Below, piece after piece: positions 31,450 to 33,188 of a DNA stretch of 56,672 bases; the stretch's first letter is position 1; each line of letters opens with the position of its first letter. The translations under genes and the position numbers were made by a program. Below the pieces are notes generated by a model that did no database searches, was not told where the DNA came from, and worked only from the letters and a program-made list of their open reading frames with translations. The stretch comes from Bacteroidota bacterium (GTDB lineage: Bacteria; Bacteroidota; Bacteroidia; Flavobacteriales_D; Crocinitomicaceae), in NCBI GenBank assembly GCA_016868915.1, contig VGFL01000002.1, positions 1 to 56,672 on the forward strand, written 5' to 3'.

Positions 31450-31849
31450 GGGGTCGACATTGGATTTGACAGCGATAGCGGTAGTCAAGTGTCAGCATGC
31501 AGAGGGTTGTGGTGAACCTCTTAAATATCTTGTCACGAACAATAATTGACAATACGTCATACGCACTTGCTGCTTAATTAACTGAATGTTAATTGGCTTA
31601 ATCCGACTGAAGCATAGTAGGTTGGACGAGTACTTCCGGTAAGTTGCTACCCTTTCGGCTTACCGTTCGGAAGTTCATCCCATAGGGTTAGCTAAAGCGA
31701 GGCAACTAAGTTTTAGCGAAACAACAGTTGCTAAGTTGCAGTTTTGGGTGTTCTTGTCCGGCCTGCATTCGAAAATCAATCATGAAATAAGCATGTAGAA
31801 AGCTTGAAAACTCATCGTTTGGACGAGGGTTCAAACCCCTCCGACTCCA
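31450..31849 (+). ncRNA. ssrA: Transfer-messenger RNA (tmRNA)
   Basis: A roughly 400-nt tmRNA that rescues stalled ribosomes. The 5' end GGGGTCG pairs with CGACTCC at the 3' end to form the tRNA-like acceptor stem, and the T-arm carries GGTTCAAACC. The discriminator A is at 31849, and the CCA is not fully encoded. The reading frame ends D-N-T-S-Y-A-L-A-A at 31548-31574 with a TAA stop at 31575; the exact resume codon upstream is uncertain. GC-rich pairs such as the GGTAAG/CTTACC stem near 31640-31665 fit pseudoknots of the core. Confidence 0.95.
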
Positions 31850-31857
31850 CTCTGATA

Positions 31858-31888
31858 AAAGCACTTTTCGTAGGAAGGTGCTTTTTTT
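31858..31888 (+). terminator. Terminator of ssrA
   Basis: AAAGCAC (31858-31864) pairs with GTGCTTT (31878-31884), with extra pairing inside and a T run after it. It begins 9 bases after the tmRNA 3' end. Confidence 0.8.
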
Positions 31889-31983
31889 ATTTCACAACGA
31901 AGCGATGCATTGCTTCAGTGAGTTATTGAAATAAAAAAATATGAACGAAGTGAATAAGGGCTTTTATCCATTGCACGTTAGTT

Positions 31984-32019
31984 GAGGTGTTCATAAAATA
32001 AACCCCTCTGACTCCACCA
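31984..32019 (+). repeat. Second imperfect copy of the tmRNA 3' end
   Basis: The bases aacccctctgactccac (32001-32017) repeat the tmRNA 3' end at 31834-31850 with one mismatch. Just upstream, gaggtgttc resembles the T-arm gagggttc, with a few extra bases between the halves. Unlike the functional copy, this one continues with the full CCA. A duplicated RNA-gene 3' end about 170 bp away is what integration at an att site in ssrA leaves behind. Confidence 0.6.
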
Positions 32020-32028
32020 ACGCCCTGA

Positions 32029-32162
32029 GAAGCTTGAAAAGCGAAGCAGGGCTATTTTAAACCAAAAATTATTTTTCTAATTCTAAATTTATTTACGCAG
32101 GGCTTCGGCGGACTCGGTCCATTCTAAAGATATGCGAAGCTGAAGCTTGAAAAGCGAAGCAG
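32029..32162 (+). repeat. Pair of 21-bp direct repeats next to the GIY-YIG gene
   Basis: The same 21 bases, starting gaagcttgaaaa and ending gcgaagcag, occur at 32029-32049 and 32142-32162. The first half, aagcttgaaaa, also occurs inside the tmRNA at about 31800-31810. The first copy lies inside a stem formed by gccctg (32022-32027) and cagggc (32047-32052). The 350 bp between ssrA and the GIY-YIG gene hold only these repeats and the 3'-end copy; no other gene was seen. Confidence 0.6.
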
Positions 32163-32207
32163 TTATATCAATTATTTTCACTATATTTAGGTAACAACCC
32201 TTTTTTT

Positions 32208-32444
32208 ATGCAATTCGTTTACTTACTTAAATGCGCCGATAATACAACATATACAGGATGCACTCAAAATATCGAAGAAAGACTTAAAAGACACGAGAAC
32301 AAACAAGTACTCTATACTTCAACACGCTTGCCAGTTAAATTAATTACCTACATTGCTTTTAGTGATAAATACCAAGCTTTTCAATTTGAAAAATACCTCA
32401 AATCAGGTTCTGGAAAAGCTTTTTCCAATAAACGGTTTTTGTAG
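32208..32444 (+). CDS. Small GIY-YIG nuclease
   Basis: A 78-residue single-domain protein. It shows the GIY-YIG signature as VYLLKC (4-9) and TYTGCT (14-19), the R25-L-K-R-H29 motif, and the metal-binding glutamate in FQFEKYLKSGSG. This is the UPF0213/YhbQ-like size class. It lacks a separate DNA-binding domain. It lies next to the duplicated tmRNA end and direct repeats, so a homing-like role in a small mobile element is possible but not shown. Confidence 0.85.
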   Translation: MQFVYLLKCADNTTYTGCTQNIEERLKRHENKQVLYTSTRLPVKLITYIAFSDKYQAFQFEKYLKSGSGKAFSNKRFL

Positions 32445-32567: not shown

Positions 32568-33188
32568 CTAATCCCTGAGGCAACGAACAGAAAACCCTTT
32601 CCCCTTGTCGCTGTCGTCCCTGCTCACCCTGCCATGGTCGTAACTCAGGTAGCGGTACCAGGCATAGTAAGTAATGTACTCGGTAGAACTCCACCAGTAA
32701 CCGTAGAAACCCATAAAGAAGAAATTTCCAAGGCTGTAGCGGAAGCCCCCAGGAAGACCTGAGAAACCGCTGCTGTTGGTGCCATTGCCATTTTCTGCCC
32801 AACCACTTTTGCTCTTCATTTTTGTGCCAGCAGCTTCTCCACCTAAAGAGTCGGTAAGTATATGCCATTCTTCATCGGAAGGAATATGATACCCAACAGG
32901 CGCGAGACCTCTTGAATCATTCACTGCATACCAATTATACAACTTACCGTATTTCGCACCATTCGCTGTGTCATTATCGTAATAACACCAAGCAGGTTTG
33001 CCTTCCGTTGCAGCTTTTTCCCATTCTTCATTAGTTTTCGCTTGGGGTATGGGGTCACCGTTTCTAAAGGTTGCAACATCCAAATTCTTGGTCATCCATA
33101 CTTGGGTACCAATGGTTACGGTTTGGGAAAAGATTGTGCTACCTGTTCCGATAAGCACAAATAAGAAAGGTGTTAACGTGGCTTTCAT
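32568..33188 (-). CDS. FISUMP-domain secreted protein
   Basis: A 206-residue protein with a signal peptide (to about residue 22, ending TIFSQ) and one Fibrobacter succinogenes major paralogous domain: IGTQVWMTKNLDV, AKYGKLYNWYAVND, GYHIPSDEEWHIL, YWWSSTEY and the closing GFSVRCLRD. These domains are common in surface and secreted proteins of Bacteroidota and have no assigned activity. It stands alone, without a T9SS sorting tail. The 120 bp between it and the GIY-YIG gene show nothing recognisable. Confidence 0.85.
   Translation of the reverse strand: MKATLTPFLFVLIGTGSTIFSQTVTIGTQVWMTKNLDVATFRNGDPIPQAKTNEEWEKAATEGKPAWCYYDNDTANGAKYGKLYNWYAVNDSRGLAPVGYHIPSDEEWHILTDSLGGEAAGTKMKSKSGWAENGNGTNSSGFSGLPGGFRYSLGNFFFMGFYGYWWSSTEYITYYAWYRYLSYDHGRVSRDDSDKGKGFSVRCLRD

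Follow-up and report, generated by a model that had tools for sequence, protein, structure and literature searches.

The DNA that follows the ssrA gene in the window, the whole stretch of 56,672 nt that was analysed (GCA_016868915.1, contig VGFL01000002.1, forward strand; window coordinates are positions in it), probably holds a small, integrase-free and homing-like mobile element that colonises tRNA and tmRNA genes, together with an ORF-less derivative inserted before it; its cutting and movement are deduced from the arrangement of the sequence. An earlier note on this DNA had described a recurring ssrA end, two 21-bp direct repeats and a nuclease ORF as one insertion. Comparison with relatives points instead to two insertions after ssrA, an ORF-less insert in front and an older, partly decayed GIY-YIG element behind, and, more broadly, to minimal mobile elements forming a family so far overlooked, whose members enter RNA genes without putting them out of action. 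No description of such an element family was found in the open-licence literature, as judged by titles and abstract openings.

The host gene of the insertions, the tmRNA gene ssrA, is intact (31450..31850, + strand, by ARAGORN; Rfam RF00023, E 2.8e-49, with an extent of 31450-31852), and its T-loop, TTCAAAC, lies at 31830-31836. The stretch AAACCCCTCCGACTCCAC of the ssrA end, at 31833-31850, has a second copy at 32000-32017 with one mismatch and a spacing of 167 bp. The recurrence, spacing and mismatch are as the earlier note gave them, and the repeat is longer than was stated there: it spans 31984-32018 and includes the T-arm. This displaced copy (31984..32018, + strand, assigned from sequence and shuffles) reads GAGGtGTTC[ATAAAAT]AAACCCCTCtGACTCCACC and consists of the ssrA T-arm and the 3' strand of the acceptor, with 7 bp added in the T-loop (31993-31999). 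No match to the ssrA end of at least 13/16 arose in 20 shuffles of the 700 bp downstream. The second copy of AAACCCCTCCGACTCCAC is followed by CA, which completes a CCA. The full CCA remarked on earlier is therefore present but probably incidental, relatives having CCACC followed by TTCGCCC where the window has CCACC followed by AACGCCC.

Between ssrA and its displaced copy lies the ORF-less insert ("type A"; 31851..31983, + strand, about 167 bp with the repeat included), delimited by sequence and comparison with relatives. It starts with a terminator-like hairpin at about 31860-31887 and ends near a right-end motif, ATCCATTGCACGTTAG, at 31966-31981. The same motif is present 3' of the GIY-YIG ORF in L094 and L013, and probably in L251; because the GIY-YIG elements of L094 and L013 share it, the type A insert may be regarded as a non-autonomous derivative. 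A search tolerating one mismatch finds the motif in 10/61 genomes of the genus; in at least L247 and L253 the match is unrelated by context.

ORF-less inserts also occur at other loci. The ssrA 3' flanks of L051 and L069 contain inserts of about 110-120 bp that are unlike that of the window, each ending in an ssrA 3'-end copy. In the window's own genome, an ORF-less insert of about 85 bp follows tRNA-Ser(gct) (L008, on C111) and contains a second tRNA 3'-end copy with an expanded T-loop, as in the ssrA insert of the window. A different type of ssrA flank, common to several genus members (L047, L051, L065, L072 and L073), has a TCCACAGGAAAGCACGCC-type hairpin and, after it, conserved sequence that seemingly codes on the opposite strand.

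The GIY-YIG element begins with a left hairpin (32019..32052, + strand; sequence, relatives) that includes the first 21-bp repeat, 32029-32049; its family form is CC followed by TTCGCCCTNCGAAGC..GCGAAGNAGGGC, and its form in the window is AACGCCCTGAGAAGC. Next is a target-matching palindrome region, GGGCTTCGGCGGACTCGGTCCAT (32100..32122, + strand; sequence, relatives), which is weakened in the window relative to the family form GCTTCGGYGGACnnnGTCCRCC. The second 21-bp repeat (32142..32162, + strand; repeat search, relatives) is interpreted as what is left of a second hairpin unit. Both repeats, already pointed out in the earlier note, are identical and have no further match in the genome at up to 3 mismatches. 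Their role as element ends was considered and rejected, since they are absent elsewhere in the genome and hairpin units explain them better. Similarly repeated hairpin units were seen by eye in L088, L091, L119 and L146.

The nuclease ORF (32208..32444, +, the strand of ssrA; Pfam, alignment, AlphaFold2) is intact and encodes 78 residues. Its identification as a GIY-YIG nuclease is borne out by a match to PF01541 that passes the cut-off (E 1.6e-13). The marks of the GIY-YIG superfamily are the GIY and YIG motifs, an arginine and a glutamate (PMC1564403), and in the present protein Y5, Y15, G17, R25 and E61 are invariant across 30 homologues. The AlphaFold2 model has a mean pLDDT of 95.2, and sequence and fold searches of the PDB place the UPF0213 proteins and Slx1 as the closest solved relatives. 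There is no separate DNA-binding domain beyond the core.

The absence of an integrase, also part of the earlier description, was upheld by Pfam among the larger ORFs downstream. Of these, a 206-aa reverse-strand ORF is a Fib_succ_major gene, and a 264-aa ORF has only a sub-cut-off match to DUF485. The Fib_succ_major gene (32568-33188, opposite strand, downstream of the element) has a counterpart near ssrA in G041 (81% DNA identity). There it lies about 475-1150 after ssrA (L060) and is bracketed by two copies of an ssrA-flank terminator; the gene is possibly cargo at ssrA in its own right.

GIY-YIG ORFs at RNA genes elsewhere in the same genome, which the earlier note had proposed to look for, were found. 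Six clear copies, including that of the window, all lie at tRNA or tmRNA genes or, as judged by eye, at tRNA pieces: one at ssrA, one at tRNA-Met (C115) and a tandem pair each on C111 and C104. On C115, the 3' part of tRNA-Met recurs behind the ORF with its T-loop broken. Each member of the C111 pair stands behind a broken tRNA 5' half, and the C104 pair is situated among tRNA copies in which a palindrome replaces the anticodon arm. A seventh match, on C31 (E 0.27), was left out of the count.

Matches at E ≤1e-8 are present in 24/100 genomes, the window's own being one of the 100. The 12 closest loci (E ≤3.8e-15, window included) comprise six with a tmRNA nearby and six without an RNA gene detected by ARAGORN, some of the latter having an RNA 3'-end fragment. 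Within the genus, 35 ssrA loci are readable for at least 300 bp; the ssrA-end repeat is present in seven and absent from 28, and most loci other than those of window type have a plain terminator or unrelated inserts after ssrA (by eye). The pattern that had been named as speaking against a mobile element, the same 600 bp at ssrA in distant relatives with gene-like conservation and no empty sites, is not what was found: the window-type GIY-YIG gene is present at 4/35 of these genus loci. Copies in L013, L017 and L022 contain stops.

A first set of loci was taken from genome contigs by protein similarity, as the best 80 of 279 homologues; these 80 come from Bacteroidota and Patescibacteria. In 56/80, ARAGORN places a tRNA or tmRNA gene in the 800 bp that precede the ORF and on its strand: tRNA-Ser in 20, tmRNA in 17, tRNA-Ala in 12, tRNA-Val and tRNA-Met in two each, and tRNA-Pro, tRNA-Thr and tRNA-Trp in one each. 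When tmRNA genes seen by Rfam alone are added and the count is restricted to the 70 loci whose upstream sequence exceeds 450 bp, a same-strand gene is found within that distance in 57/70 and an opposite-strand gene in 0/70; on the downstream side, a tRNA or tmRNA gene lies within 800 bp of the ORF in 4/73. The median distance from RNA gene to ORF is 150 bp. The earlier suggestion that the GIY-YIG protein targets structured RNA genes consequently stands as an association (57/70 relatives and 6/6 copies in the window's genome), and cutting of these genes would be a further step deduced from it.

Among the remaining 13 loci, eight have an RNA 3'-end fragment that matches at 14-16 of 16 bases, above shuffles, and three reach 13/16, a value also reached by shuffles, at the element border in L092 and L142 and elsewhere in L117. 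L111 has an N gap after an apparent tRNA-Met start, and L123 has no convincing RNA gene or fragment. An Rfam scan for ribosomal and other RNAs beside homologues without a tRNA (20 loci) gave one short match only, to Acido-Lenti-1 in L197. Among loci of the subfamily nearest to that of the window, the RNA-end repeat is found behind the ORF in just 3/56 (L157, L165 and L135), so the right border and insertion mode of this subfamily are less clear than those of the wider family; in L137 the repeat stands before the ORF, and in L087 it is a second whole tRNA-Ala. Many of the loci are from draft metagenome assemblies, some with contig breaks at repeats.

The wider family has profile matches at E ≤1e-10 in 146/395 Bacteroidota genomes. 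A second set of 70 loci from this profile list, 30 as listed and 40 hand-picked, contains 83 hits, 48 of which adjoin a same-strand tRNA or tmRNA gene. Two classes can be distinguished. In class I (39 hits, one of which has an opposite-strand tRNA as well) the ORF comes after the RNA gene, and the last 16 bases of that gene recur behind the ORF at 13/16 or better in 13/39. In class II, a mirror form with nine hits, the ORF comes before the RNA gene, and the first 16 bases of the tRNA stand as an exact copy before the ORF in 7/9; the order is a broken tRNA 5' half, the nuclease and an intact tRNA. The remaining 35 hits have no neighbouring RNA gene, six of these being in arrays with tRNA halves (L203, L204 and L242).

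The repeats in this set are 14-32 bp long, and single units measure 289-729 bp where both borders could be set. That size leaves no room for an integrase, and it goes against the earlier alternative of a remnant of a larger island as far as the GIY-YIG part is concerned. Units are found singly, in combination and in arrays: class I and class II forms flank one intact tRNA-Ser in L174, three units of a broken tRNA-Ser 5' half and an ORF precede the intact tRNA in L204, and the largest tandem array, in L203, has five ORF units after tRNA-Leu. Small inserts or palindromes interrupt the displaced copies. In the 3'-side cases read by eye the interruption falls inside the T-loop or at its edge; exceptions are the C104 copies, which are broken at the anticodon arm, and L216, where the break extends from anticodon to T-loop. 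Terminal inverted repeats, as in a DNA transposon, were rejected as a general feature: among 15 units with a distal repeat, inverted ends score above every shuffle in four, all at tRNA-Ser (L174, L188, L189 and L192), and do not in the other 11.

The palindrome that precedes the ORF holds the last 5-7 bases of the host gene in both orientations. Where the host gene ends in TCCACC the palindrome is GGTGGAC/GTCCACC, and where it ends in TCCGCC the palindrome is GGCGGAC/GTCCGCC; the corresponding forms are GTGGGC/GCCCAC at tRNA-Met (L124), GTCGGGC/GCCCGAC at tRNA-Pro (L149) and GCGGGC/GCCCGC at tRNA-Trp (L166), all of these palindromes having been picked with the gene end known. In a further test, palindromes were chosen at 51 loci by G+C content and length alone. 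Their mean match to the end of their own gene was 4.27/6, compared with a permutation mean of 3.86, and was reached in 0/20000 permutations, a result that relatedness inflates because the Ser elements cluster. The end of the locus's own gene is carried by 32/51 of these palindromes and is missing from the other 19, one of which carries the end of the other class, the rest being other hairpins. The agreement holds for Ser elements of both phyla and for the single Met, Pro and Trp cases.

Several comparisons suggest movement between sites. In the protein tree, elements at ssrA and tRNA-Ala are mixed, also inside a supported Fluviicola-type clade (100/95), and Ser elements cluster, with 8 changes vs 18 in shuffles (78 columns, many forks unresolved). 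L090 and L091, one linked to ssrA and one to tRNA-Ala, have matching sequence, split into two pieces, that runs from the start of the element to a point about 90 bp beyond the ORF. Presence is patchy, with empty alleles at the same site both among the genus ssrA loci and in a comparison of L278 (G143) with L210: in the former, tRNA-Leu is followed at once by a terminator that in L210 lies beyond the GIY-YIG unit and repeat. The two are 78% identical over 72 bp, 23 of them tRNA, which leaves about 49 bp outside the tRNA in a comparison between genera, and on this basis they are regarded with moderate confidence as an empty-site pair. A pair from Marinilabilia salmonicolor (L099/L106) is 82% identical over 799 bp around the element, just the last bases of ssrA preceding the element in L099. 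L216 has a unit at tRNA-Cys; in the relative examined for an empty site, the contig stops before the tRNA.

The nuclease appears to be kept working under purifying selection, since dN/dS ranges from 0.008 to 0.163 in pairs at least 74% identical, many with saturated dS. Searches for carriage on plasmids and phages gave just distant GIY-YIG proteins in three plasmid and two phage records (E ≤1e-5); 0/131 candidate stretches in viral contigs were confirmed, and 0/9 members had a PHROG match at 1e-5. A separate candidate, an acceptor end borne by the element, was rejected. The ssrA end in G002, G015, G036 and G058 is CGGCTCCA and not CGACTCCA, and the 5' strand is altered too (GGGGCCG vs GGGGTCG); as both strands changed together, the acceptor stem is simply conserved. 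The first three of these genomes carry the element, and G058 has the hairpins without the ORF in the stretch read.

The anatomy, the strand rule, the broken displaced copies and the selection on the ORF together point to the nuclease as the mobility enzyme, and a possible cycle can be outlined. The element would be read from the strand of the RNA gene, probably by read-through. The GIY-YIG protein would cut an unoccupied RNA gene in the T-loop, a sequence largely common to tRNAs and tmRNA, or, in the mirror form, in the D-arm or anticodon region; these sites are suggested by where the displaced copies are broken. Break repair would then use an occupied allele or locus as template and bring in the element along with a new end for the RNA gene. 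The end products are those seen: the RNA gene is whole, and beyond the element lies a partial copy, displaced and broken. The palindrome, which matches the gene end, may align element and target. Later arrivals, whether elements or islands, would enter at that RNA 3' end too and displace the older ones, as appears to have happened in the window.

The main rival to this homing-like reading takes the insertions for very small integrative elements, or scars of attachment sites, that tyrosine integrases of resident islands mobilise in trans, with the GIY-YIG gene as a passenger. Integrases leave direct repeats at tRNA genes that run from the anticodon or T-loop to the 3' end, and the repeat geometry found here resembles such attachment sites. 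ORF-less inserts do occur, L236 has an extra insert with an intact repeat and without a GIY-YIG hit, and at one genus locus (L071) an ORF behind ssrA resembles an integrase by eye. This explanation is nevertheless judged unlikely, given that the window lacks an integrase and units of 289-729 bp could not hold one, that the same small nuclease recurs at RNA genes in two phyla under purifying selection, and that a 5'-side mirror form exists. The palindromes in the T-arm or D-arm of displaced copies would also be unusual for att sites.

Purifying selection, the conserved hairpins and the nearest solved relatives among small UPF0213 GIY-YIG proteins are also consistent with a host function, in which a vertically inherited, resident nuclease gene is kept by RNA genes for tRNA-locus repair, processing or copy-number control. 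That possibility is made improbable by the patchy distribution already described (24/100 relatives, 146/395 Bacteroidota and 4/35 genus ssrA loci), by close relatives at different RNA genes, by tandem arrays of up to five copies and by the stops in L013, L017 and L022. The protein might alternatively act on small palindromes in the manner of REP/RAYT systems, RNA genes being just where palindromes settle. Palindromes do lie beside or inside the displaced RNA copies, and a dispersed palindrome of the GAGC..AGTCGA type is found within 600 bp upstream in 12/35 second-set hits without an RNA gene vs 1/48 with one. In the window's subfamily, however, dispersal of the left hairpin is not seen (0-2 hits per genome, 6 in all over 8 genomes), and strand and placement with respect to RNA genes show too much regularity for this explanation, to which we give little credence.

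Returning to the homing-like reading, a fuller version of it can be proposed tentatively, with a probability that we place below even. The elements would constitute a minimal class of mobile DNA in Bacteroidota and Patescibacteria whose sole mobility enzyme is a GIY-YIG protein of 78 aa that has no separate DNA-binding domain. They would enter tRNA and tmRNA genes at the T-loop, or in the 5' half as far as the anticodon, rebuild the gene from a carried copy, leave the displaced copy sealed by a palindrome, and find or align the target via a palindrome holding the last bases of the gene, such that a new target could be learned by copying its end. If the homing-like reading is true, minimal parasites only a few hundred bases long, each encoding a single tiny enzyme, live in the tRNA and tmRNA genes of two large phyla. 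Their insertion would account for partial tRNA copies and additional ssrA ends, and would show how an essential gene can be invaded with no need of intron, intein or integrase. It would also become directly testable by what means a nuclease that lacks a DNA-binding domain locates its site, and the family would be a bacterial counterpart of phage SegB.

SegB of phages T4 and T6, the closest analogue, is described as a free-standing GIY-YIG homing endonuclease of the tRNA region that cuts inside tRNA genes, with the motif RAWTSGAAC at 23/83 mapped sites (PMC13096335), and its homologues are reported near tRNAs in phages (PMC13096335, PMC2988022). On our reading rather than that of PMC13096335, this motif would be the antisense of GTTCSAWTY, the T-loop of many tRNAs; the ssrA T-loop of the window, GTTCAAACC, is not an exact match. 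Both systems have a GIY-YIG gene beside tRNA genes (here tRNA or tmRNA, in 57/70 and 48/83). SegB belongs to phage genomes, however, whereas the present elements are on bacterial contigs of Bacteroidota and Patescibacteria, have a 78-aa ORF without a PHROG match and leave partial RNA-gene copies behind. Since the displaced copy and target-matching palindrome are unexpected from SegB, the elements are probably a variant of homing-type elements and possibly a class of their own. Integrative islands with a tyrosine integrase likewise insert at RNA genes and leave a whole gene and a partial copy (PMC9897764); a repeat of the RNA 3' end behind the ORF is found here in 13/39 class I hits and in 3/56 loci of the window's subfamily. 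They differ from the present units of 289-729 bp, which have one nuclease, no integrase, a palindrome-broken displaced copy and a 5'-side form.

Among proteins with the same catalytic core, the small UPF0213 GIY-YIG proteins (1zg2, 1ywl; YazA-like) are alike in fold and size class and are the best PDB matches. We know of no link between them and RNA genes, and a search of the open-licence literature by UPF0213 names found no paper on one. Intron homing endonucleases of the I-TevI type share the GIY-YIG catalytic core; the similarity to NCBIfam TIGR01453 is weak (18.5 bits vs a cut-off of 56), and I-TevI itself (1ln0) ranks 33 in the fold search with E 2.0. Unlike that type, the elements have no separate DNA-binding domain, and no group I intron family scored above the Rfam gathering score in 79 loci, or at E ≤1 in the window region. 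In a Yanofskybacteria MAG (L148, about 2630-2960), a tRNA with a group I-like intron, recognised by eye and without an Rfam intron above the gathering score, stands directly before a GIY-YIG element.

RAYT/REP systems, in which one small enzyme, an HUH transposase, is linked to palindromes, resemble the present elements in having a single small enzyme with such a link. They differ in that the enzyme here is of the GIY-YIG type and the left hairpin is low-copy in the window's subfamily (6 hits/8 genomes). The 12 homologues beside the dispersed GAGC..AGTCGA-type palindrome (L205, L208, L211, L217, L220, L221, L223, L227, L231, L235, L240 and L241) are about 99-117 aa long, and possibly represent a REP-like system with a GIY-YIG enzyme.
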